Shown: positions 15,487 to 38,384, numbered from the stretch's first letter. The stretch is DNA of 40,116 nt from a bacterium (GCA_030430495.1 JAUIKM010000045.1:1-40116); one strand, 5' to 3'. The notes: generated by a model from the letters alone, not told the origin. Numbers and translations: made by a program.

Positions 15487-16980
15487 TCAGCGCAGCACGC
15501 GCAGGTTCAGATTGGTCGCGCCGTCCCTGGTATGCACGCGCACGATGTACGCACCCGGGACCAGCCCGGAGGTATGCAGCAGGACGGATTGTTCCCTGAC
15601 TTCTGCAACAGCCGTTTTTTGTTCGCCGCGCAGGTTGAAGACTTCTATCGACTCGATGGTTTCCGGCGTTTGCGCTGCAATGCGAACAATATTGTCGGCC
15701 GGGTTCGGGCTCAAGGTCAGCAGGGGCTGAATCGCCTCGGTCTCGTCGGCTGAGCTGACCGTGCCTTCCAGTGAAAAAATGCCGCGATTGCGCGTAATGC
15801 CGCGCGCGTCGTCGAGTTTGATGCTGAGATTTTGTTCCAGCGGCCTTGCGCTTTCAACCTGCAAATACACCACCGTGCCGTTGAGGCGCACGCCGGTATG
15901 CGGGTAAAAATGACCGATCGCCAGGCTCACGCTGCGCGTATCGTTGTTGATCTCGTCAACAAACTGGCCGCCCGGCTGCAGAAAAACCTCGCCGTTGGTG
16001 ATTCCGACCACTTCGACGTCCGCCGGCAGATGCGCCCATGAGATGCGCCCCGCCAGGCCCAGCCCGATCTCATCGCTTTCCACCGTCACGGGGATGCTGT
16101 AGGTCGCGTTGAGTTTGTCGCTGCCGAAATTTTTCGTACCCCTGCCGCCGTTGATCTCGTCGTCATTTTTCTTCACGGCGCCCACGTGGATGCGGTCAAA
16201 ATTGGCCATCACCACCAGGAAGTCCGTGTTGTCGACGCGGCCGCTGCCGTCGGCGTCGGCATAGGTCACGCGCACGCTGTCCCAGGAGAGCGCACGCTGC
16301 GCGGCCCAGATTGTCGATGCCGGGTCACGCGCAAAACCGCGGATGCGGCCGGCCGGGTCGCCGTCGTCAAAAAACTGGCTGATAACCGACCAGTCCGAGT
16401 GGTCGACGACGCGGTCGTTGTTGGCGTCGCCGGGCCAGACGTCGATGAATCCGTGCACGTCGTAAGAATTGCTGATGCCCACCAGCCGCTCAATCGATCG
16501 ATCGATATTGCCGACCACGGCTTCCGGTTTGGTAAAGCTGAAACGCACCCGCGAGTTGTGCACCGCGTTGGCTGCGCCGATAAAGTTCAGTCGAATGACG
16601 GTGTGGTCGTTGAGGCCGGGACGGCCGACGGGATTGGCAAGCTGCGCCGCAACGGAGATGCTGCCGGTGCCGTTGGCCTGATTGGTGCGCACCGGCGGCA
16701 CCGTCAATTCAGACTCGGCATACGCACCGTCGGCGGACCAGCCGTCAAAACGGATCGCGCCGGCGTTGGTCCACTGCATTTCAAAAAAGACGCCTTTGAT
16801 GTTGTTCAAACCTTCCACGCGCACGTTCAGGCTGAACGGCTGTGTAGCTGTCAGGAAGTGGTTCTTGCCGGTGGAGGGCGGCCGGTCGGCGCGTTCAATC
16901 AGTATGGTCTGAGCCTGGACGGTAGTCGCCAGACAGAGTAGCGCCGCAATCAGAGTCGAAAATCGTAGGGTTGTTCGCAT
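15487..16980 (-). CDS. T9SS-exported protein with cohesin-like and dockerin-like regions
   Basis: 497 residues from ATG 16980, chosen because it opens a clean signal peptide (MRTTLRFSTL... ending VQAQ); the open frame extends further upstream but looks non-coding. Residues about 40-180 resemble a cohesin/carbohydrate-binding beta-sandwich. About 180-262 hold two dockerin-like calcium loops, GDANNDRVVDHSDW and DADGSGRVDNTDF. A middle beta domain follows, then a T9SS type A sorting domain from about 419 to the end (LTLSPNPADN...PGAYIVRVHT). The protein is expected to be surface-attached or released. Cohesin and dockerin-like pieces in one T9SS protein suggest structural or binding roles; no catalytic domain is visible. 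Confidence 0.85.
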   Translation of the reverse strand: MRTTLRFSTLIAALLCLATTVQAQTILIERADRPPSTGKNHFLTATQPFSLNVRVEGLNNIKGVFFEMQWTNAGAIRFDGWSADGAYAESELTVPPVRTNQANGTGSISVAAQLANPVGRPGLNDHTVIRLNFIGAANAVHNSRVRFSFTKPEAVVGNIDRSIERLVGISNSYDVHGFIDVWPGDANNDRVVDHSDWSVISQFFDDGDPAGRIRGFARDPASTIWAAQRALSWDSVRVTYADADGSGRVDNTDFLVVMANFDRIHVGAVKKNDDEINGGRGTKNFGSDKLNATYSIPVTVESDEIGLGLAGRISWAHLPADVEVVGITNGEVFLQPGGQFVDEINNDTRSVSLAIGHFYPHTGVRLNGTVVYLQVESARPLEQNLSIKLDDARGITRNRGIFSLEGTVSSADETEAIQPLLTLSPNPADNIVRIAAQTPETIESIEVFNLRGEQKTAVAEVREQSVLLHTSGLVPGAYIVRVHTRDGATNLNLRVLR

Positions 16981-17124
16981 ACCTGCACCCGGGGACTGTA
17001 ATTTCGTCGAAGGAAAACGTGGAAAGTACGAGAACGCAGCGTAAAGGTCAAGCGGACGCCCCGCATTGTCACAGCGGTACGACCGAACAATTCCCGAACA
17101 GACCCCGGAATGCATGGCCCGAAC

Positions 17125-22534: not shown

Positions 22535-23227
22535 ATGTCTGTCAACAGCCCGATCGACGAAGACGACCAACAGGAAACTCCCCACGCAGCCAGCGCGCAC
22601 GGCTGGAAAATCATCTTCATTTTTCTGGGCGCGATTGTCCTGCTGGTGACGGCGCTGACGCTGATGTACCGCGAAATGCCGAAAAAATCCGGCATTGTGG
22701 AACGCCGCAAGACGCCCGCCACCGCCGGCGTGTTCACCGCCGTGATTTCACCGATTGATTCGGTGCAGGCCGCGGAGATCGCGGACCGCATCGCCGCCTC
22801 AATCGGAGCGGATTCCAGCGTGACGCAGATGGTGGTGGGCGGCACGCACAACTACAAACACTGCACCTCCCTGGCGGACTATCAAACCATTCTGCAGAGC
22901 GCCATGATCAATGCGCGGCCGGAAGACCTGGACACCCAGTCCAAACTTCTGGCCCAGGTAGTCAGCCGCCTGATGACGGACCACATGCCTTCAACCTTCT
23001 ATCTCGTAGGGGACTTCGAACCGGCCGACTTCTCAACGATCGCGTATCGCGTATCCGGGGCGGCCAATGTAATGCGCATGCGAGCAGCCATGAGTGATCA
23101 GTATGGCAGCGTGTCGATGGTGGTCTTCCCCGACAAACAGTACAGCGGGTCGGCCGAACGCGAAACCGTGCGCACGCAGGTTTTTGATACCTTCCGCGCA
23201 CAGGGAATCGACGTCAGAGTGCACTAA
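22535..23227 (+). CDS. Membrane-anchored protein of unknown function
   Basis: 230 residues; GGAGGGG at 22522-22528 supports ATG 22535. An acidic cytoplasmic N-terminus (1-22) is followed by one transmembrane helix (WKIIFIFLGAIVLLVTALTL) and an extracytoplasmic domain of alternating strands and helices (FTAVISPID, STFYLVGDF, VSMVVFPDK). I do not recognise the domain; it could be a Rossmann- or VWA-like alpha/beta fold without a visible metal site. It ends in a four-base convergent overlap with prolyl oligopeptidase and follows aspartate kinase by 95 bp. Confidence 0.75.
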   Translation: MSVNSPIDEDDQQETPHAASAHGWKIIFIFLGAIVLLVTALTLMYREMPKKSGIVERRKTPATAGVFTAVISPIDSVQAAEIADRIAASIGADSSVTQMVVGGTHNYKHCTSLADYQTILQSAMINARPEDLDTQSKLLAQVVSRLMTDHMPSTFYLVGDFEPADFSTIAYRVSGAANVMRMRAAMSDQYGSVSMVVFPDKQYSGSAERETVRTQVFDTFRAQGIDVRVH

Positions 23228-25272
23228 ACCTGCCCGTCCATGCCCAGATGGTGCATGATAAAACTCCAGTAATCGGACTCGTCGGCGATGATTTTGTCGA
23301 TGGGTCGTCCGGCGCCATGCCCGGCGCGATCGCCGACGCGCAGAATCACCGGATTCGGCGGCTGTGCCGCCTGCAATGTAGCCGCAAACTTATACGAATG
23401 GGACGGCACAACGCGGTCGTCGTGGTTTGCCGTCATAATCAGCGTCGCCGGATAGTCCACTTCCGGCCGGACGTTGTGCAGAGGCGAGTAAGCGCGCAGG
23501 GCGTGAAACTGCTCTTCATTTTCACTGCTGCCGTATTCCGTGCGCCAGGCCCAGCCGATAGTGAACTTGTCGTAGCGCAACATGTCAAATACGCCGACAA
23601 TCGGCACAGCGGCGGCAAAGAGTTCCGGGCGCTGCGTCATAACAGCGCCGACGAGCAGTCCACCGTTGGAGCCGCCCATCATCGCCATGTGTTCAGGCCT
23701 GGTGTAGTTGAGATCAATCAACAGTTCGGCCGCGGCAATGAAGTCATTGAAAGTGTTCTGCTTTTTCTCCAGAATGGCTGCTTTGTGCCACTTCTGGCCG
23801 AACTCGCCGCCGCCGCGTGCATTGACCACCACAAAAACACCGCCGCGCTTGAGAAAACTGTCGCGCAGGCTGTTGTATTCGGGCGTCAGTTTGATGTTGA
23901 ATCCGCCGTAGGCGTAAAAAACCGCCGGATTGTTGCCGTCGAGTTGAATGCCTTTTTTATGGATAACGAACATTGGAATGCGCTCGCCGTCGGCGCTGAC
24001 AGCGTGCAGCCGTTCGGTCACGACCTCGGGATTGCCGCCCGTGACGCGGCGGACCACGGAGAGACTGCGGTCGGCCGTATCGTAGTGCATGACACTGATG
24101 GGCTGTGTGAAAGTCGTGTATCCAAAGCTGAGGATGCTGGAATCGGGCTCCGCATGCGCCTCAAAAATTGTCGCAGGCCCGGGCAGATCGGGCTCGTCAA
24201 TCAACCGGCCGTCGAAGTCGTAGATGCGCAGTTGCGAAGATGCATCGTGGAGGTAAAGCGCCGCAATCGCATTTGCGGTGAGGACCGCGTTGCTCAGGAC
24301 TTCTTCGCCGGTCGGCAGCACATCCAGCCAGTTGGTTTCGGCCGGATCTTCCGGATCGACGGACACAAGTCTGTAGTTGGGAGCATTCAGATCGGTGCGC
24401 AGCAGAAGCCGGCCGTTTGCGTAACCCACGGGTGAGTATTCCGTTTTGGGCGTCAATCCAATCTGCGTCCAGCCCGCCTCAGCAGCGCCGTCAAGCGGAC
24501 GGTACAGCAAACGATTGCCTCCGGACGAACCTTCGTATTCCACGATGAACTGCGCATTCTGTTCCGGGTAGACCATGGCTCCCACAAGAGCGCGCGGCTT
24601 TTCCGGGTTGCTGTAGACCAGGCGATCCTGCTCCTGGGACTCGCCGAGCCTGTGGTGGTAGACCTTCTGATATTGCGCGGAAGCCACCAGTGCCGTTTTC
24701 TCGTCGGGCGGATCAAAGGCGCTGTAGTAGAATCCTTCGTGATCCCATTCGGGCAGGTTGTAGCGCACCCACCGTATTTCATCATCCAGGTCACGGCCAG
24801 TCTCGAGTTCGCGCACGCGGATCGTCACCCAGTCCGATCCCGCCTCCGACAGTCCGTAAGCCAGGTAGCGCGCGTCGCGCGAGGGCGTCACAAAGTTGAG
24901 GCTGACGGTTCCGTCGTCTGAAAAACCGTTTGGATCAAGTACGGATTCTTCCGCGTCGTCCTTCATACAACACAGCGCGGCAAGCTGATCTTGCGGGCGT
25001 TTGCGCCAGAAATACACTTTGCCGCCTATGACCAGAGCGGGACGATAGCGGGTGGAATTGAGACTCTCTTTGAACTCGGCACGCAGGGCCGCGCGAATGC
25101 CGATTTCACCCAGGTATGCTGCACACAGCTTCTTTTGTTGACGCAACCACGCTGTAACGGCTTGGCTCTGACCGTCTTCCAGCGGCCGAAAGGGGTCTTC
25201 CACGGCGATACCAAAATAGTCATCAACCACGGCGGCGCGGGGCGCGGCCGGATACCTGATGTCAACTGCCAT
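23224..25272 (-). CDS. Prolyl oligopeptidase (family S9A)
   Basis: 682 residues from ATG 25272, which has AAGGA upstream; the open frame begins 15 codons earlier. The N-terminal YFGIAVEDPFRPLED and a seven-bladed propeller region (about 60-400) precede an alpha/beta-hydrolase domain with Ser535 in GGSNGG, Asp618/619 in NHDDRVVP and His652 in AGHGAG, the S9A triad in the expected order and spacing. It cleaves short peptides after proline. There is no signal peptide, so it is probably cytoplasmic. It is convergent with the upstream unknown membrane gene. Confidence 0.95.
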   Translation of the reverse strand: MAVDIRYPAAPRAAVVDDYFGIAVEDPFRPLEDGQSQAVTAWLRQQKKLCAAYLGEIGIRAALRAEFKESLNSTRYRPALVIGGKVYFWRKRPQDQLAALCCMKDDAEESVLDPNGFSDDGTVSLNFVTPSRDARYLAYGLSEAGSDWVTIRVRELETGRDLDDEIRWVRYNLPEWDHEGFYYSAFDPPDEKTALVASAQYQKVYHHRLGESQEQDRLVYSNPEKPRALVGAMVYPEQNAQFIVEYEGSSGGNRLLYRPLDGAAEAGWTQIGLTPKTEYSPVGYANGRLLLRTDLNAPNYRLVSVDPEDPAETNWLDVLPTGEEVLSNAVLTANAIAALYLHDASSQLRIYDFDGRLIDEPDLPGPATIFEAHAEPDSSILSFGYTTFTQPISVMHYDTADRSLSVVRRVTGGNPEVVTERLHAVSADGERIPMFVIHKKGIQLDGNNPAVFYAYGGFNIKLTPEYNSLRDSFLKRGGVFVVVNARGGGEFGQKWHKAAILEKKQNTFNDFIAAAELLIDLNYTRPEHMAMMGGSNGGLLVGAVMTQRPELFAAAVPIVGVFDMLRYDKFTIGWAWRTEYGSSENEEQFHALRAYSPLHNVRPEVDYPATLIMTANHDDRVVPSHSYKFAATLQAAQPPNPVILRVGDRAGHGAGRPIDKIIADESDYWSFIMHHLGMDGQV

Positions 25273-25344
25273 TACTGTATTTCCTTGCTGCTGTGTGGCC
25301 CGCCGGGCGCGGGGCATGAACTCTCAGCGCCAAGCCGATTGACG

Positions 25345-26745
25345 CTATTTACTGACTATGACAATTTCAGTTCGGCGGTTGAGCGAACGACCGAATTCAG
25401 TTTCGTTGGTGGCTATGGGCTTGCTTTCTCCATAGCCGAACACCTGAATGCGCTCCTCGGGAATTCCCGTGCGCACGAGATAACGGCGGACCGCTTCGGC
25501 GCGCTGCTCGGAGAGGCGCTGATTCAACTGGTTGGAGCCGCGGCTGTCGGTATGCCCTTCAACGCGGATAGCCACCGTGGGCTTGCGCTCCATGTACATG
25601 GCGATGGTATCCAGCGCCGGCACCGTGCCCTGCAGATCGGCACTGCCTGTGCCGAACAACAGATTCTTGATGATCAGTTTGCGGCCGACTTCTCCGATGG
25701 GAATTGTGCGAAGCGTCAGGCGGCGCTTTTCCTTGTCCAGAATCCCGATTTCCAACGAATCCGGCAAGGCCGGCGTACCGGAGCGGTACTTGAGCGCATA
25801 CAGGTTTGTCAGCTGATTGGAGAAGTTGTCGAGGATTGTCGCAAAGGACTGATTGATATCAAACGTAGCGCCGCGCGTGCCGTTGGAGATCACTTTGTAC
25901 TGTTCCAGCGTCTTGGGCACGATGCAGAAAACGCGTGCGTCGTTCTGCGACAAAAAATTTGTGATGCTCGGCGTCGTAAAACTCGTCACACCCTGTCCGT
26001 GATCGCCCTTTTGATGGTAGGGCGCATCTGTAATCAGCACGAATACTTTGTTCGCAGAAGGGCGAAAATCCATTCGGGCGGCCGTTGCCAGTGCTTCCAG
26101 GGCATTTTCATTGAAATCGCTGCCACCGCTGGCGCGTGTGTTGGCCAGCCACTCCAGAAACTTGATTACGTCCCCGCTGGGCGAGTAGGAATTGTCGATC
26201 ACGTCGGAAAACAGCACCAACCCCAGCTTGTAGTCGATGCCGCGCCGCACCAGGGAGGAGGTGAAGTTGATGATGTTGTTGCGGACGCCGTCGATATAGG
26301 TCTGCATCGAACCGGTTACGTCGATCACAAACACAAAGTCGACCGGAACGCGCTCGTTGACCGAAAGTTTTTCAACTGAGAGAACGGGTATCTCTGCCTG
26401 ATTCTCCATGATGGTCAGATCTGTGTCGACCAGCGTGTCCAACGGCTCGCCCTCATCGTTGAACGCTTCAACGATGACGTTGACCAGAGGCCACTCGGAG
26501 ATATCGACATTGCGGATCGTCAGGACCAGACCGTCGCGCTGCGACTGTACCGTGGTAGCGGGCATCGTGTCGGGCTGGGCGACAGTGTCTTGCAAGGCGC
26601 GCGCCTGCCGCACCGGCGCATCGAAGGCCGCCCTGGTGGAGTCGACGGACCACGCCTGTGTTGAAGCCAGAATCAAGCCGAGAAAGAGAACCACGAACCA
26701 CTGCTGCAAAGTCCGTTCATTTCGAGGCTTAGGCATTCTTCCCAT
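25345..26745 (-). CDS. VWA domain protein with C-terminal OmpA domain
   Basis: 466 residues: signal peptide (about 1-32), a beta-rich segment (70-130), a von Willebrand A domain starting FVFVIDVTGSMQTYIDG with MIDAS residues Asp142, Thr144 and Ser146, and an OmpA-type peptidoglycan-binding domain from about 350 (ADLQGTVPALDTIA, VEGHTDSRGSNQLNQRLSEQRA, GYGESKPIATNE). It is probably anchored to the cell wall with the VWA domain facing the periplasm. A terminator separates it from the barrel gene upstream, so it has its own promoter. MPKPRNER (26736) is an equally good start. Confidence 0.9.
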   Translation of the reverse strand: MGRMPKPRNERTLQQWFVVLFLGLILASTQAWSVDSTRAAFDAPVRQARALQDTVAQPDTMPATTVQSQRDGLVLTIRNVDISEWPLVNVIVEAFNDEGEPLDTLVDTDLTIMENQAEIPVLSVEKLSVNERVPVDFVFVIDVTGSMQTYIDGVRNNIINFTSSLVRRGIDYKLGLVLFSDVIDNSYSPSGDVIKFLEWLANTRASGGSDFNENALEALATAARMDFRPSANKVFVLITDAPYHQKGDHGQGVTSFTTPSITNFLSQNDARVFCIVPKTLEQYKVISNGTRGATFDINQSFATILDNFSNQLTNLYALKYRSGTPALPDSLEIGILDKEKRRLTLRTIPIGEVGRKLIIKNLLFGTGSADLQGTVPALDTIAMYMERKPTVAIRVEGHTDSRGSNQLNQRLSEQRAEAVRRYLVRTGIPEERIQVFGYGESKPIATNETEFGRSLNRRTEIVIVSK

Positions 26746-26800
26746 TTACATCCACGCTCTCATTGGCCTGCTGCCGGCCGCTCTTCCAACTGGGTGGAAC

Positions 26801-26832
26801 AAAAAAGGGCGGCGCCTGTGTTGGCGCCACCC
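26801..26832 (-). terminator. Intrinsic terminator between the barrel gene and VWA-OmpA
   Basis: On the minus strand GGGTGGCGCC, loop AACACA, GGCGCCGCCC and then six T. The 10-bp stem has one G-U. It ends transcription of the gene at 26912-28360 before the VWA-OmpA gene begins. Confidence 0.85.
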
Positions 26833-26911
26833 ATGGAAATACTGATTTTCGACGCCGACGCTCTTCAGACGTCTACGAAAACATGCATTTCAAGAACGCC
26901 GGTTGAATACG

Positions 26912-28360
26912 TCAGATCGTAAGACGCAGAACCGGCGAAATCATGAAAAAGTGGTCGGATTCGTAGTAGCGCGTGCTGCGCAGCGGCTGTGCGTACTTGC
27001 CTTCCAGATAGAAGAAGCGGCCAAAGAGCGGAATGTACACGCGGCCCAGCAGAATCTGGTTCGAGTACTGTGCGGAAATCCCGAAGGGAAATGCCGCCTG
27101 GCTGCGGTATTCGACTTTGGCGTAGATCCAGTCGCCTAGTTCGCTGTTTTTATAGGTGCGCAGTCCCAGCACGCCTTCCGTCGATATCTTGGAGATGCGC
27201 TCGTTGTCAATGAAAAACGCCGCTTCACGCACTTCCGCGTAGGAAATACCCAGGTCAAAACGGAAATAGTTTTCAGGTACCGCCGGGTCCAGCCACAGGT
27301 GGTAAAAACCCGTAATCTGGCCCGTACCGCGCAGAATTGGAGCGACCGAAAGAACGTCAAATTTCGGGTCAAGAAATTCGACGGTGCGGCCGCGGCCGGT
27401 ATTTACCGGAAACAGCGCATACGTGCCGGGATCAATGCCTTCGGTTCCCAGCCCCGCAAAGGGCAGGTTCAACTCCACGTGCAGGCCGGCTTCAGGATGT
27501 ACCGGAACGTGGAAATCCAGACCGGCAAAAAACTTGCCACCGGGACCCGCGTTGAGACGGCGCTCTTTGACCCAGTCAAACACGCCGCTGGTTCCGTCTT
27601 CCAGTCCGGTCGAAAGGCGATAGGAGCCGCCGATCCAAACGTCGATCAGATGCGGAATCGCCTTGCGCGTGCGCGTGTCCGTGTTTTCGTACAGCGGACG
27701 GCGCAGACTGGCCATCGCTTCGCCTGCGGACCAGAAGTGGTAACCCACAGCGTCGTTGCCGATGTGAGAACGCAACCAGAAACCGGACTCGCCGACTTTG
27801 ACCGCCTGGTCAAAAGCCGAAAGCGTAAAGGCGTGGTTCACGTTCGTCGGCTCCAGAAAGTCCGTGATGACTTCGTGCTGATACTGCGTCAGCGGAGCGT
27901 CTTTCGGAATTTCGTTGAAGCAGTACGTGCGCTCACCGTAATCGTTGATAAATCCTTTGTACGGGCCGCTGAAGATGATCTCGCCGCTGACGATCCCCGC
28001 CAGGCTTTCCATGTAGGAGTCGATTTCAGAGGCGGTCATGTGGCATTTGCCGCATTCGACCAACAGCAACTGATAGGGCTCGTACGGGTCGTCGATGGAT
28101 TTTGGCGCCGCCGTCACAACGATGTCGTTGACGTCGAGGCTGTCAGCCGGAAAACCGTGCAGAATGAAGACCTGCTCAATCTGAATCTGCAGGTCGTACT
28201 CACAAAGACTCCAGCGCGGAAAGTATCCAACGATGTTCGAGTCGAGCGTCGTCAGGGCGCTGACCAACTGCTTGCGGTTTTGAGGAGGATTGGCCTCGCT
28301 GTGAATCGGCATCGAGACCATGCACGCTACCGCAGCCAGAAAGACAAGTGCACGTTTCAT
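26912..28360 (-). CDS. Predicted outer-membrane barrel protein with a CxxCH site
   Basis: 482 residues from ATG 28360, which opens a typical signal peptide (MKRALVFLAAVACMVS); a start at 28378 is possible. Residues about 45-230 form a domain with cysteines, including CGKCH at 103-107, the pattern of a c-type haem site. The remainder (about 240-482) has repeated aromatic strands such as IGGSYRLSTGL, FRFDLGISYAEV and GRVYIPLFGRFFYLEGKY, ending PVLRLTI, as in an outer-membrane barrel. I do not recognise a family. It follows the other barrel gene and lies before a terminator. Confidence 0.75.
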   Translation of the reverse strand: MKRALVFLAAVACMVSMPIHSEANPPQNRKQLVSALTTLDSNIVGYFPRWSLCEYDLQIQIEQVFILHGFPADSLDVNDIVVTAAPKSIDDPYEPYQLLLVECGKCHMTASEIDSYMESLAGIVSGEIIFSGPYKGFINDYGERTYCFNEIPKDAPLTQYQHEVITDFLEPTNVNHAFTLSAFDQAVKVGESGFWLRSHIGNDAVGYHFWSAGEAMASLRRPLYENTDTRTRKAIPHLIDVWIGGSYRLSTGLEDGTSGVFDWVKERRLNAGPGGKFFAGLDFHVPVHPEAGLHVELNLPFAGLGTEGIDPGTYALFPVNTGRGRTVEFLDPKFDVLSVAPILRGTGQITGFYHLWLDPAVPENYFRFDLGISYAEVREAAFFIDNERISKISTEGVLGLRTYKNSELGDWIYAKVEYRSQAAFPFGISAQYSNQILLGRVYIPLFGRFFYLEGKYAQPLRSTRYYESDHFFMISPVLRLTI

Positions 28361-28490
28361 ATAGTTCGCTTTAATCATAGTATCTGAGTGAGAGTCTGTT
28401 CGCGATATAGGGGTTGAATCGTGAGGCGCGTTGCACATCCGGCGAAACGCTCATGCGCTTCCGGATAAACTCGGCGGCCCCGGCTGCAGT

Positions 28491-30236
28491 TTACCAGTTG
28501 TAAAGCACTCGTACCGAAGGCAGAAATACGCTGCCCGGCTCCCAGGCGTGCTCGTCGCGCAGTGCGGCCGCAAAGCCGCGCGCATCCAGCTTGACCCTGA
28601 CCTGGTCCGATACAGGAATCTGCAACCAGATGTTGCCCCAAATCGCCTCGTCAAAGTACTGAACGCCAAAACCGAAAGGCGTCGTCTCCGCCAGCCCCAT
28701 GAACTCAATGCGGCCGGAAATGCCGCCGCGCGTTTCACTGCCCTGCTCGCGGAACTCTACAACGTCCTCAAATTCGCTGTTCTGATCCGGTTCATATCGC
28801 CAGTCTTCGATCGTGTAGACCGTACCACCAACGCCAAAACGGAACAGATAGTCGTCGTCGACGGCCACCGCAAAGGTGTAGTGCGCCTGTGCGTTGAAGC
28901 GAATGAAGTAATCCAGATCGTTGACATTTTCTTGGAACGTGAACGGATCGGTGTCGCGATCCTTGTAAGATGCCGGTTCGGCGTCACCCAGAACATAACC
29001 GAACGACGCACTAAAAATACCGCTTTTCGGAATAACTTTGATCGGGAAGTCCATCTTGCCGTTGATACCGAAGCTGCCGTGCGTCAGCATGCGATCCGCT
29101 CCGAGGTCTTCGGACAGCGTCGCCCAACCCGACGTCGGCAGAATCACACCCAGCTTGACATTGCTCCAGATGGCATTCAGCGCCACGCGCTCCGACCACA
29201 GACCGGGATAGTTGATCTCGTCGATGCCGTATTTCAGCTCAACGCCGTACTTCGGCAGGTAATTGTTCAGGATGGGCTGATAAGCATCGGCTTCCGCCGC
29301 AGCCAGTTCTTCGCCGCTCAGATCGTTGCCCTCATCATCCTGCGGCGGATAGTAGTAGGGATCCTCGTAGCGGCGGTAGCTTATCTCGTCCACGCCGACA
29401 ACCAGCAGGTTTTCGCGGTAGATGTCCGCCGGCTCGCCGTTGGAAATGCGCAGGTACTGCTGAATGTCCTCAGGCGAAACATTGGCGGAGTTGCGCTCGA
29501 GCGGCGCGGATTTGCCGAAAACCTGCGGGTAGAAGTTGGTTTGTCCAAGACCCTGCAGTTGGGCCGTAATGTTCGAGTAGTCGCGCTGTACGATGGCGTT
29601 CTCAACGTAGTCGTACAGGTTCGCCGCGCCCAGGCTGGAATCGATTTCGTAGGCCTTGAGCTCGTCGATGGTCAGGATGTCCGTCGGCGCAACCGTGTTG
29701 AGGTTGTCCTCCGCTTTTTCCTTGCCTTTGCTCGATTGAATCAGCGAGATGATCGTTGGCGTGACGCCCTGCGGCGCGCGCGTCGTAACGAGGTAGACGT
29801 CTTCGATGCGACGCTTGACCCCGCCATCCTTGATTTTGGCTTCGATGACCGCCTGAATGTCGGGCGTCAGTCGAATACCGAGTCCCTGCAACTGCCTGAC
29901 GACATCCTGGAAGTTGCGGCTGCGCTGTACGGCCGCGTCGATGGCGCGAACCGTGGCGGGGTCGACCTTGGCCAGAATTGCCGGATCGACTTCTTCACCT
30001 TCGTCGCTCGTCGTCAGCAGCTTTTTTACGGTGCTGACGCTCGGCGCCTGCAGACGCAGTACCCAGATGTCGCTGTAGCGATAGTATTTGAGCTTCTGCA
30101 CCAGGGGCCTGATGTCGTTCTGAGCAAACAAATCGCCGCTCAGGAACATCAGCGCCGCCAGTGCGGCCGTTATCGCGGGAACCAGACGGCGGGGGCCTGC
30201 AGCCTTTGCCGCACGGACTTTTTGTGCTTGAATCAT
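28491..30236 (-). CDS. Predicted outer-membrane barrel protein with N-terminal helical domain
   Basis: 581 residues from ATG 30236; the open frame extends upstream into the next gene but MIQAQKVRAAKA opens a signal peptide ending LFAQ. Residues about 45-330 look mostly helical and charged, with QGLG segments (RQLQGLGIRLTPDIQAV, AQLQGLGQTN). About 345-581 is strand-rich with aromatic girdles (GINGKMDFPIKV, YLFRFGVGGTVYTIEDW) and ends VRVLYNW, a C-terminal aromatic residue typical of barrels. No known family is recognised. It sits between the GldM-like gene (139 bp) and the other barrel gene (130 bp). Confidence 0.75.
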   Translation of the reverse strand: MIQAQKVRAAKAAGPRRLVPAITAALAALMFLSGDLFAQNDIRPLVQKLKYYRYSDIWVLRLQAPSVSTVKKLLTTSDEGEEVDPAILAKVDPATVRAIDAAVQRSRNFQDVVRQLQGLGIRLTPDIQAVIEAKIKDGGVKRRIEDVYLVTTRAPQGVTPTIISLIQSSKGKEKAEDNLNTVAPTDILTIDELKAYEIDSSLGAANLYDYVENAIVQRDYSNITAQLQGLGQTNFYPQVFGKSAPLERNSANVSPEDIQQYLRISNGEPADIYRENLLVVGVDEISYRRYEDPYYYPPQDDEGNDLSGEELAAAEADAYQPILNNYLPKYGVELKYGIDEINYPGLWSERVALNAIWSNVKLGVILPTSGWATLSEDLGADRMLTHGSFGINGKMDFPIKVIPKSGIFSASFGYVLGDAEPASYKDRDTDPFTFQENVNDLDYFIRFNAQAHYTFAVAVDDDYLFRFGVGGTVYTIEDWRYEPDQNSEFEDVVEFREQGSETRGGISGRIEFMGLAETTPFGFGVQYFDEAIWGNIWLQIPVSDQVRVKLDARGFAAALRDEHAWEPGSVFLPSVRVLYNW

Positions 30237-30375
30237 CGCGCTCTTTACGTAAGTATGAATGATAGTTCTGTTCTTTGTGATTACATGTCTCGCCCGCTGG
30301 GCGCCTGGCGGCTCTTCCTCTTCATACCTCCAGGCTACTGCGCGTCGGGTCCCCCTTCCCCGGGAACCGCTATCA

Positions 30376-32682
30376 TTACCTGCGCGGCGGCGGGCGACGT
30401 CCACCAGGTCCGCCTCCACGCGTTCTGGCCACCTCATGCGAAACCGTCACGTTGAACGTTCCGACCGCCGGCGATGATGTCACGCCGTTGATTGAGTTGC
30501 GCACCGTCGTGGACAGACTGATGTCAACATAGCCGGAAATCTCTTCTTCGCGACCAAGGTCGCCTTCAAAGTTGATGTTGACCGTGTACATGCCGTCGCC
30601 CTGGTCTTCCACGTAACTTTCCGTCGGCTGGAAGTCCGGTGCAAGCGAAGCCGTGATTTCACCAACTTCAGGCATGGACAATTCATCCGGTGTGGAGGTC
30701 ACGGCGGACGTATCTACGATCGCCGGCACGACGCGAATGTCGCGAAGACTGAGCGTGAATTTCTTCGTGCTCGTTCCGGATGTCTTGGTCGATACACGCG
30801 TGAAGTCGAACGAAGGCGGCTCCTGATTGATCGTCTTCGACGCCGCGGGATACAGGTCGACTTCTTCGTTGGTGTAGGGCGAAATCCAGGTGATCCGCAG
30901 ACTGGCCGTTTGGGCCGAAGCCGGGATCTTCATGATCTGGCTCAGACCATAGGTCGGCGCCGTCTGCTCGAGCGAATTGAGTCCGGCGTAGGTGCGGAAC
31001 TGGTTCGCGGGGATTTTCCCTTCGCTGGTCGGCGTCGCCTCAACCGTAAGAGCATAGCCGTAGTAGAGGCTGTTCATCTTGAAGTCGAGATCGTTTTTGC
31101 TGTCCTGCGTCAGACCCGTCGGATAGACTTCCAACGGCGTGACTTCTTCTTTGACCTTGCTGGCGTTTTTCTGTACGACCTGAATCGTGTAGTTGCCCGG
31201 CTCCAGCACGCGGTCTGCAACCGCCTTGTACAGCTTCTTGCCGCCGCGAACGGATTCGGAACCGCCGCCCGCTTCCGCCACCGCGCCGATCGGCTCGATA
31301 GACAGCGGAATCTGCTGGCCGCTGGCCGTCAGAATAATACCGGTCGGTACGTTGTTGCCCTGGAACGGACCCGACGTAAAGGTGAACGCCGGACGCAATT
31401 TGTCGAAGTAAAACACGCCTTCGGGCGGCAGGTCAACATAGGGGTCGGCAATGTTCATCGGCGGTTTGATCACGCGGATGTCGATCTCTTTGGTGCCCTG
31501 ATTCTGCTGGAAGAAGTCCGACATATTCGGCGCCAGCAGCTTGCCGATATAACCGTAGAGGTCGATCTGCGACATCAGGCGCGTTGCCTCGTTGTCGTCG
31601 TCGAACTCGCCGGCTACGCGGCGCTCGCTCACGCGTTTCTTGGCTTCTTCCAGTTGTTTGTCGTAATCCGCCGCTACCTGGCGCACTTCAACTTCGCCGC
31701 CACGTGCTTCAAACAACATCTCTGCCGACGGAACGCCGAGGCCTTCCAGTCGCTTGGTCAATTCCTTGTGAACCGTTTTGAGTTCTTTAACCTTCAGTTG
31801 CACCGTCCCGATGTTGACCTTGGCATCGTCGGGTACGGCGTCAATCGTCAGCATGTCGGCATCCGCGCCGCCCAGACCGAGAATCTTGTTCGTGCGCGAA
31901 CCGAAGCGAAGTTTGTACCAGCCCGGTTTCTGCGGCGCCTGAAAGCGCACCACAAACACGCGTTTTTTCAGTTTGTTGTCGTCTTTGGCAGCCAGTTCCA
32001 TGGTCGAATTCTGGTCGTACCAGAACACGCTGTCGGCTTTGATGGCTTCGGGCGGCGCGTGTGCCGCCAGGTCCCCGACCTCATGCGTAAAGTCGCTGTA
32101 CATCGGTTCTTCCCAGGAGTGCGTGGCCCCCGTGTCCAGCTCAAGACGGCGCACCATCTGCAGACGCCAGTAGTCGCCGTCGATCTCATCGCCGATTATC
32201 TGTCCTTCTTCGGTCAGGTTGATCAGCTCAAGCGAATCGCTCGACGGAAAAGTCGGCGATTGCTCGGGATCGAGGCTGGGGTGGAAGAATATCTGGTATT
32301 CCAGCTCTTCCACGTTGGCGAGCCGGATGTTTGTGCGGTATTTCTCGTGATAGTCTTCCTTCGTCGGATCGAGATCCTCGTGGCCGGAAATGTCCGTTAC
32401 GCCGACTTCGATCTCGTATTCGCGGTCCTGGCGAATCTCCGGACCGTCGCCCGTTTTGACTTCCTGCAGCGTGATTTCGTCTTTCGGTTTTGTGCTGATG
32501 CCTTCGCTGCCTGCGCCCGTTTGCAACTGGGAGAGAATGCTCTCCACAATGCGCATCGTTTCTTTCTGCTTCTGGATAAGGTGTTCTTCGGCTTCGTCAC
32601 GCTCTACGATGATGATCAGAAGCTCGAGAATCACAGCGAGGTAAAGTACAAAGTAGACCTTCCCCGCACCGCCTTGTGCCAT
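30376..32682 (-). CDS. GldM/PorM-like protein, one N-terminal transmembrane helix
   Basis: 768 residues. GGAGAAG precedes ATG 32682. A single transmembrane helix (about 9-27, with Glu20 inside it) is followed directly by helical charged sequence and a large extracytoplasmic region: beta-rich parts, a coiled coil near 320-370 (VKELKTVHKELTKRLEGLG), more beta domains, and a Gly/Pro/Arg tail GGGPGGRRPPPRR. This topology and the helix sequence resemble GldM/PorM of the type IX secretion motor, but the protein is longer than GldM (~513) and no gldL or gldN is adjacent. T9SS cargo in the window makes the link plausible; homology is not demonstrated. Confidence 0.6.
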   Translation of the reverse strand: MAQGGAGKVYFVLYLAVILELLIIIVERDEAEEHLIQKQKETMRIVESILSQLQTGAGSEGISTKPKDEITLQEVKTGDGPEIRQDREYEIEVGVTDISGHEDLDPTKEDYHEKYRTNIRLANVEELEYQIFFHPSLDPEQSPTFPSSDSLELINLTEEGQIIGDEIDGDYWRLQMVRRLELDTGATHSWEEPMYSDFTHEVGDLAAHAPPEAIKADSVFWYDQNSTMELAAKDDNKLKKRVFVVRFQAPQKPGWYKLRFGSRTNKILGLGGADADMLTIDAVPDDAKVNIGTVQLKVKELKTVHKELTKRLEGLGVPSAEMLFEARGGEVEVRQVAADYDKQLEEAKKRVSERRVAGEFDDDNEATRLMSQIDLYGYIGKLLAPNMSDFFQQNQGTKEIDIRVIKPPMNIADPYVDLPPEGVFYFDKLRPAFTFTSGPFQGNNVPTGIILTASGQQIPLSIEPIGAVAEAGGGSESVRGGKKLYKAVADRVLEPGNYTIQVVQKNASKVKEEVTPLEVYPTGLTQDSKNDLDFKMNSLYYGYALTVEATPTSEGKIPANQFRTYAGLNSLEQTAPTYGLSQIMKIPASAQTASLRITWISPYTNEEVDLYPAASKTINQEPPSFDFTRVSTKTSGTSTKKFTLSLRDIRVVPAIVDTSAVTSTPDELSMPEVGEITASLAPDFQPTESYVEDQGDGMYTVNINFEGDLGREEEISGYVDISLSTTVRNSINGVTSSPAVGTFNVTVSHEVARTRGGGPGGRRPPPRR

Positions 32683-37038: not shown

Positions 37039-37065
37039 GTGGAATCGCGGTGGAGTGAAGCGCCC

Positions 37066-38319
37066 ATGCTGACGGAAGCAACACAGGAAATACGATCGAA
37101 GATACTGCAGGACGACGGTCCGTTTGTGGTAACGCTCAGTGCGCCCACCTATGCAGAAAAAGACAAGACACAGACAGGCCGCGACAAGGCGGCCACGCTG
37201 AAGCTGCTGCGGCAGTGGATTGAACTGCCGGCCGCGCCGCGCAAAATGGTGCTGCACAACCTGAACTCGCCCGACCAGGTCAGTCTGGAGTGTTTTACCC
37301 AGAAGCAGCACTTTACGGCGCATGTGGAGCTCAAAGAGGCCGCGGCGCTGGAATCGCTCGTGGACGCCGTGTTTTCCACGCACTTTCTGCAGGTGCATCT
37401 GCAGACGCCCGACGGCGACATCAACCTGCGCCTGTATCCGCGCGGAGGCGGCAAATCGCCCAAAGTGGTCATGAAAAAGGGCAAGGCCTCGCGCAAGCAG
37501 TGGGACGCACAGGGACGCGACGTCAGACAACATCCGATTACCGCGGGCAACTCCGTTGAACTGTTGAAAAAACTCGGCATTGCCGACGAGCGCGGCCGCA
37601 TCATCGACAGCAAACGCGCCAAATTCAAGCAGATCAACCAGTTCATCACCATCGCGCTGACGCTCGATTTGTTCAAATCGCCGCCGCGCGACCGCGCGTT
37701 GCGCATTATCGACTGCGGTTGCGGCAAGGCCTATCTTAGTCTGGCGCTGTATCACTTCCTGCAGCAGGAGCGCGGACTGAACGTGGAACTGATCGGCATC
37801 GACTCCAACCCGCGCGTCATCAACTTTGCGAACACGACGGCGCAGGCGCTCGGCATGAAGCGAGCGCAGTTTGTGCACGCCAATATCAGCGAGGCGCAGA
37901 CGCCCGACTCCTGCGACCTGCTGATCGCGCTGCACGCCTGCGACACGGCCACGGACGAAGCCCTGGCACTGGCGCTGCGCATTCAGGCGGCGGCAATTCT
38001 GGCCGCTCCCTGCTGTCACCACTACGTCAACGATCGACTCAGGCGCGCCGATGGACCGCCCGCAATGGCCGCGCTCGTACGCGACAACATCGGCCGCGAG
38101 CGCCTGGCCGACCTTTTGACGGACAGCATGCGGCGCGACATTCTGCAAAGCAGGGGATACCGCGCAGGTCTGATGGAATTTGTCGCGCCGGAACACACCA
38201 CCAGAAACATCATGATCCGCGCCGAATATCGCGGAACACCGGGCGACGAGGAAGAGCTACAGACGAGTTATGAACAGTGGGGCGTAGCGCCGTTTCTGGC
38301 CAAACTGATCAAAGGCTGA
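37066..38319 (+). CDS. SAM-dependent methyltransferase (Methyltransf_32-like)
   Basis: 417 residues from ATG 37066, preceded by GGAG at 37052-37055; a GTG at 37039, adjoining the comF stop, is an alternative. The SAM-binding motif IIDCGCGKAYLSLALY begins near residue 214, and LIALHACDTATDEAL and AAPCCHHYV are typical of the class related to GSTCD and Trm13-like methyltransferases. The N-terminal 180 residues are a charged domain (PRGGGKSPKVVMKKGKASRK) that may bind nucleic acid. The substrate is unknown; RNA is plausible. It is the last gene of the kynA-comF operon. Confidence 0.88.
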   Translation: MLTEATQEIRSKILQDDGPFVVTLSAPTYAEKDKTQTGRDKAATLKLLRQWIELPAAPRKMVLHNLNSPDQVSLECFTQKQHFTAHVELKEAAALESLVDAVFSTHFLQVHLQTPDGDINLRLYPRGGGKSPKVVMKKGKASRKQWDAQGRDVRQHPITAGNSVELLKKLGIADERGRIIDSKRAKFKQINQFITIALTLDLFKSPPRDRALRIIDCGCGKAYLSLALYHFLQQERGLNVELIGIDSNPRVINFANTTAQALGMKRAQFVHANISEAQTPDSCDLLIALHACDTATDEALALALRIQAAAILAAPCCHHYVNDRLRRADGPPAMAALVRDNIGRERLADLLTDSMRRDILQSRGYRAGLMEFVAPEHTTRNIMIRAEYRGTPGDEEELQTSYEQWGVAPFLAKLIKG

Positions 38320-38384
38320 GCAGGATTTGAACGCGCGGTTTACAGACTCGGGGCTACTGCGGGACGCCCGCCTTCAAACGCATT

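Follow-up and report, generated by a model that had tools for sequence, protein, structure and literature searches.

The DNA analysed here is a stretch of 40,116 nucleotides from a bacterium (GCA_030430495.1, JAUIKM010000045.1:1-40116), which we refer to as the window. A preliminary description had placed four adjacent envelope genes on its minus strand, and each of the four frames was found at its stated position and is conserved far beyond chance. The features of the operon are as follows.

M1, 30376..32682, minus strand: 768-aa inner-membrane protein, proposed axle and shaft of a motor
M1 transmembrane (TM) segment, residues ~8-30, KVYFVLYLAVILELLIIIVERDE, 32593..32661, minus strand: near-invariant across the order, with Glu20 in the membrane span
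Barrel 1, 28491..30236, minus strand: 581 aa from the likely start; predicted periplasmic alpha/beta domain and FadL-like outer-membrane barrel
Barrel 2, 26912..28360, minus strand: 482 aa from the likely start; paralogous to barrel 1 by profile comparison and predicted to form an outer-membrane barrel
VWA-OmpA protein, 25345..26745, minus strand: 466 aa; Pfam OmpA 3.4e-22, VWA_4 9.5e-11

The open reading frame of barrel 1 is over-long, and its true start is likely residue 68 at base 30236, where a signal peptide begins with MIQAQKV; the resulting 581 aa agree with the lengths of the relatives. Barrel 2 probably starts at base 28360, which gives 482 aa. With the revised starts, the four genes are separated by gaps of 139, 130, and 166 bp. 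Within the operon, only the VWA-OmpA gene had family matches in Pfam or NCBIfam. M1 and both barrels matched nothing in Pfam, NCBIfam, or PHROGs, and a PDB sequence search with these three proteins returned a single chance hit, for barrel 1.

By these searches, the two barrels that had been predicted at this locus belong to no recognised family. The model of barrel 1 (pLDDT 72) consists of an alpha/beta domain and a FadL-like barrel at residues ~295-618 of the modelled chain, with VIA-align Z scores of 14.9 to CymD and 11.9 to PorV (6h3i_F). In a profile comparison barrel 2 matched barrel 1 at 96% (E 3.4e-9), which makes it a paralog and a predicted outer-membrane barrel. The VWA-OmpA protein is laid out as a signal sequence, a VWA domain, and a C-terminal OmpA domain. 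Its VWA metal-site motif is complete (D142-x-T144-x-S/T146, S180, D240), and the metal-site and OmpA residues are retained in 17/17 VWA-OmpA sequences. Since the OmpA residues are intact, binding of this protein to peptidoglycan is plausible.

Several genes around the operon were also considered. The S9 peptidase gene downstream (23224-25317) adjoins the operon in no relative but the closest one, and is therefore not an operon member; a ribonucleotide reductase, a spermidine synthase, and an aminotransferase, found as neighbours of M1 or L1 (the partner described below), are ordinary genes. At 22535-23227 the window encodes a conserved one-TM protein of ~230 aa without a family. Its gene lies close to the end of the operon in seven loci, and in several of these it and the VWA-OmpA gene are convergent. 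Immediately upstream of M1, several families carry genes for small cysteine-rich secreted proteins of 82-140 aa:

Cysteine-rich secreted proteins: L033:1496-1918, L035:8267-8668, L037:10939-11187, L038:10803-11075, L039:8031-8288

Conservation of the operon in Kapabacteriales

The relatives that share the M1 gene bear the names Candidatus Kapaibacterium or Kapabacteria, and on this basis the window genome is a member of Candidatus Kapabacteria, order Kapabacteriales, which are uncultured bacteria. M1 was detected in 41/41 Kapabacteriales genomes, which represent 10 families, and the four-gene order was kept in every Kapabacteriales family sampled. Even relatives with identities as low as 32-50% have all four genes, arranged and oriented as in the window. 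Among 19 wider loci, 16 carried all four genes in matching order and orientation. At L034 (genome G015), M1 and both barrels were present and the VWA-OmpA gene was absent from the locus; two further loci, without barrels, hold solo M1 paralogs of family f8, whose genomes contain the complete operon elsewhere. The VWA-OmpA gene stood beside the barrels in 16/19 loci, and also in genome G159. Since the identity of M1 to that of the window falls to 32%, yet the order is kept, the gene order is evidently under selection. The preliminary description had held that the lack of a conserved neighbourhood would speak against its proposal, and this lack proved not to be the case across Kapabacteriales.

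Two public MAG contigs, L067 and L130, labelled Desulfobulbaceae and Bradyrhizobiaceae, hold this Kapabacterial gene, and are probably mis-binned or misnamed.

The M1 protein and its proposed partner L1

In the AlphaFold model of M1 (mean pLDDT 83.9), a long helix with the single N-terminal TM segment is followed by a large periplasmic part, comprising a beta domain (~60-295), a helical domain (~298-383), and, at ~395-750, a set of three beta domains with Ig-like folds. In the alignment of the order, GKVYFVLYLAVILELLIIIVERDEAEE, the N-terminal helix, is near-invariant and has Glu20 within its membrane-spanning portion, and its motif also heads short M proteins of related orders (hhalign 97%, E 7.4e-11, 25 columns). 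A helix so constant in a protein that otherwise drifts to 32% identity is more than a plain anchor requires. This bears on the idea that M1 takes no part in a motor and is a passive tether or scaffold linking the barrels to the inner membrane. Such a role would suit the generic Ig-like folds of the beta domains, and proton coupling of M1 is itself an extrapolation; the near-invariant helix with Glu20 argues against it, however, as does the pairing of M-type helices with L proteins, and we regard a passive tether as very unlikely.

We then compared M1 with GldM. The curated GldM/PorM profile TIGR03517 was over its cut-off in 0/49 genomes of the class, including the window genome, and in 48/149 genomes outside the class, which served as positive control. 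Profile-profile alignment (hhalign) of M1 with Bacteroidia GldM gave a probability of 1.2% and left the TM helices unaligned, and a search with the M TM profile retrieved no GldM. As there was no curated, Pfam/NCBIfam, PDB-sequence, or profile-profile match, identification of M1 as GldM by sequence was rejected. A fold search of the M1 model against the PDB returned generic arrays of Ig and fibronectin domains; the matches listed did not include GldM, which is not thereby excluded. GldM has one TM helix, a helical domain D1, and three beta domains D2-D4 (PMC5790014), and the likeness of this layout to that of the M1 model is suggestive. Hence the label 'GldM-like', given to M1 in the preliminary description, fails in terms of sequence, including the profile check that the description had proposed, and stands in the sense that M1 may work like GldM, mainly by virtue of its partner gene.

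This partner is L1. In family f8 (four genomes), its gene adjoins that of an M1 paralog and encodes a 4-TM protein of 465-472 aa. An L1 ortholog is present in 41/41 Kapabacteriales genomes, and M1 and L1 are far apart in most of them. In the window genome it lies outside the window:

L1, window genome, contig C38, about 37064-38365: 433 aa, 4-TM

In related orders of the same class, a compact locus encodes L (174-355 aa) and then a short M (186-222 aa; 428 in one), followed usually by a 365-aa periplasmic protein and, in most, by one or two barrel pairs. Barrel A of these loci is homologous to barrel 1 (92%, E 5e-7), and barrel B has a weak best match to barrel 2 (29%). L was found in 11/33 genomes of the class outside Kapabacteriales; M scored in ten of these eleven, and in the one left over, G213, a short M is the neighbour of L. 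The two genes are adjacent in 9/11 related-order genomes holding both. Adjacency of an M gene to a gldL-like gene is thus seen for the M1 paralog in f8 and for the short M in related orders, and not for the M1 of the window. Two proposals on these loci were unsupported, namely that the 365-aa periplasmic gene is a split-off C-terminus of M1 or GldM, and that a 520-537-aa DUF2254 gene upstream of L is the source of the N-terminal half of L1.

L1 contains a GldL-type two-helix hairpin with a conserved TM2 Glu, and this Glu is invariant in both L alignments (A5, A7). In GldL, E49 is strictly conserved and is essential for type IX secretion in Flavobacterium (PMC8986121). When the L and GldL hairpins were compared by hhalign, the match reached a probability of 43.6% (E 2.4e-4) over 60 columns, and the conserved Glu of one was aligned to that of the other; 0/60 block-shuffled profiles scored as high, and the reversed profile scored 12.9 versus 27.25. 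These values are modest evidence that the L hairpin is remotely homologous to GldL, the match being weak on its own. The curated GldL/PorL profile TIGR03513 was over its cut-off in 0/49 genomes of the class versus 48/149 outside it, and L1 did not match the GldL_N profile. A MotA/ExbB domain in L1 was likewise discarded, as no such Pfam match was found.

Type IX secretion and the proposed motor

The type IX secretion system (T9SS) has been studied in Bacteroidia, where GldLM powers secretion. SprA is present in 41/41 genomes of the order and in 49/49 of the class. T9SS cargo had been noted in the window, and the gene at 15487-17115 does exceed the cut-off for Por_Secre_tail (29.2 bits versus 27); it also bears a dockerin type I domain. 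L1 lies directly upstream of a PorU-like C25 peptidase gene, on the same strand and at 5-284 bp, in 11/16 non-f8 loci from seven families. C25 peptidases can act as sortases, but may also be cargo. Those linked to L1 have ~1800-2000 aa, one copy ending at a contig edge, and the C25 domain was strong in both that were scanned with Pfam. For four C25 peptidases tested, the best likeness was to PorU and PorU2, at 126-264 bits, under the curated cut-offs. As to a canonical gldKLMN locus elsewhere, neither the GldL nor the GldM model had a match in the window genome; GldN was found in 0/41 genomes of the order, in a search without positive control. With GldL, GldM, and GldN as the proteins searched, a separate canonical locus did not emerge.

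In family f31 of the same phylum (L251:3287-8136, L252, L253), we observed a divergent gldL-M locus with weak model scores of 31.6 bits (GldL) and 38 bits (GldM), and at L251 a GldK hit as well. Surveys of T9SS at present may overlook divergent loci of this kind.

Taken together, these findings suggested, with moderate confidence, that a divergent machine of the GldLM type, most likely powering the T9SS, has its axle and shaft as well as its outer-membrane end encoded by the operon, with L1 as partner. This reading rests on the presence of M1 and L1 in 41/41 genomes each, the conserved gene order of the operon, the L-M pairing, the GldL-like hairpin, and the linkage to PorU-like genes, and further on the occurrence of SprA in 49/49 genomes of a class where GldL and GldM models find 0/49. 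Counting against it are the undetected sequence likeness of M1 to GldM, the generic Ig arrays among its PDB fold matches, the weakness of the L-GldL match on its own, the distance between M1 and L1 in most genomes, and the possible cargo role and sub-cut-off PorU scores of the C25 peptidases. The related-order genomes with SprA but neither L nor M, and the second pair L3-M3, both described below, also count against it. The preliminary description had left open a divergent T9SS part or a distinct trans-envelope machine, and this pair of options gains support from the conserved neighbourhood, the undetected canonical GldL and GldM, and the GldL-like, PorU-linked partner.

5:2 motors generally operate in a ring-and-axle manner (PMC9389320). 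In the GldLM-type machine that we favour, L1, encoded elsewhere, would form a ring around M1. Protons crossing at the hairpin Glu of L1, and perhaps at Glu20 of the M1 helix too, would turn or bend an M1 dimer, whose arm would span the periplasm so that its distal domains could act on the barrel pair. The VWA-OmpA protein would serve as a clamp tied to the cell wall, and type IX secretion is the process most likely to be energised. The stoichiometry, the proton use, the contacts, and the T9SS function of this L1-M1 machine are what we infer from the genes and models above. We raise only tentatively that it could represent an undescribed class of ion-driven motor in Kapabacteria and their relatives, with Glu20 in the axle, a GldL-type Glu in the ring, and a shaft driving FadL-like barrels clamped by VWA-OmpA.

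The operon and L1 could also make up a trans-envelope machine that is driven by protons but distinct from the T9SS motor, serving for example surface gliding, outer-membrane energisation, or envelope maintenance. Its distribution in related orders is patchy, though all of them have SprA: 22/33 related-order genomes hold SprA with neither L nor M detected, which means that SprA is not strictly dependent on this system. The dedicated barrels and the VWA-OmpA protein have no known counterpart in gldKLMN loci, and a positional link of the operon to SprA was dismissed, as M, L, and the barrels were all absent from the four SprA loci read. In contrast, L1 adjoins a PorU-like C25 peptidase in 11/16 loci, and the class has no recognised GldL or GldM; we consider a machine other than the T9SS motor to be unlikely.

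A second adjacent pair, L3-M3 (about 266 and 500 aa), was present in each of the ten Kapabacteriales genomes that were read for this pair, as well as in G159. It has no family match, and in the genome of the window it lies near an LptF/G-type gene. The TM motif of M3 reads YFVLYLxALxLLLPDK. L also has a third paralog, L2 (about 330-400 aa), which stands beside an AAA/TPR gene in some genomes.

L3-M3: L166:5300-7632 (G000 contig C70); also L234-L241, L247, L174
L2: L165:7877-9013 (G000 contig C9); also L242-L246

L3 and M3 are close in size to GldL and GldM and are adjacent wherever read, and in one genome (L174) the order is L3-M3-L1-PorU-like. It is thus conceivable that L3-M3 is the real T9SS motor, with L1-M1 and the barrels acting as an accessory motor or a surface-movement track. 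However, L3-M3 was seen in Kapabacteriales and G159 only, whereas the L1/M1 type extends to several related orders, and the usual neighbour of the PorU-like gene is L1, not L3. We judge this assignment to be improbable, and retain the L1-M1 pair as the candidate motor.

Where a whole class bears SprA and neither GldL nor GldM can be recognised, one must ask how its secretion is powered. The operon and L1 are concrete, testable candidates for the secretion motor of this class, and the operon proteins could yield family models that annotation lacks today.

Comparison with known systems

The outer-membrane end of the operon recalls two T9SS components. Like PorE, the VWA-OmpA protein has an OmpA C-terminal domain, presumably periplasmic, but a VWA domain replaces the other domains of PorE, and the OmpA part alone matches (70.8 bits versus a cut-off of 600). 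Barrel 1 shares the FadL-type fold of PorV (Z 11.9 to 6h3i_F); it differs in an extra N-terminal periplasmic domain of ~250 residues, in having no barrel-family match, and in a higher Z score for ordinary FadL channels.

The 5:2 ion-driven motors MotAB, ExbBD, TolQR, and AglRQS resemble the L1-M1 pair in that the inner subunit has one TM with an acidic residue in it, an intramembrane Asp in MotB and ExbD and Glu20 in M1, and in having a multi-TM outer subunit. The cell-wall-binding OmpA-type domain of such motors is on a separate protein in the Kapabacteriales operon. In contrast to these motors, L has no Pfam/NCBIfam match to MotA_ExbB and M none to ExbD or MotB, and the periplasmic shaft of M1 is much larger.

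Compared with GldLM, M1 is without sequence similarity to GldM, contains one beta domain more, and bears a Glu in its TM, L1 has an additional N-terminal two-TM region, and M1 is grouped with two barrels and VWA-OmpA rather than with GldK and GldN, usually apart from L1. On the other hand, M1 combines a single TM with an extended periplasmic part of several domains, modelled as a helical domain and then three beta domains (compare D1-D4 of GldM; PMC5790014), L1 has a hairpin with an invariant TM2 Glu, and the host genomes have SprA and T9SS cargo. The operon and L1 could link GldLM to the MotAB/ExbBD motors, and reveal the way in which a shaft connects to the outer membrane.
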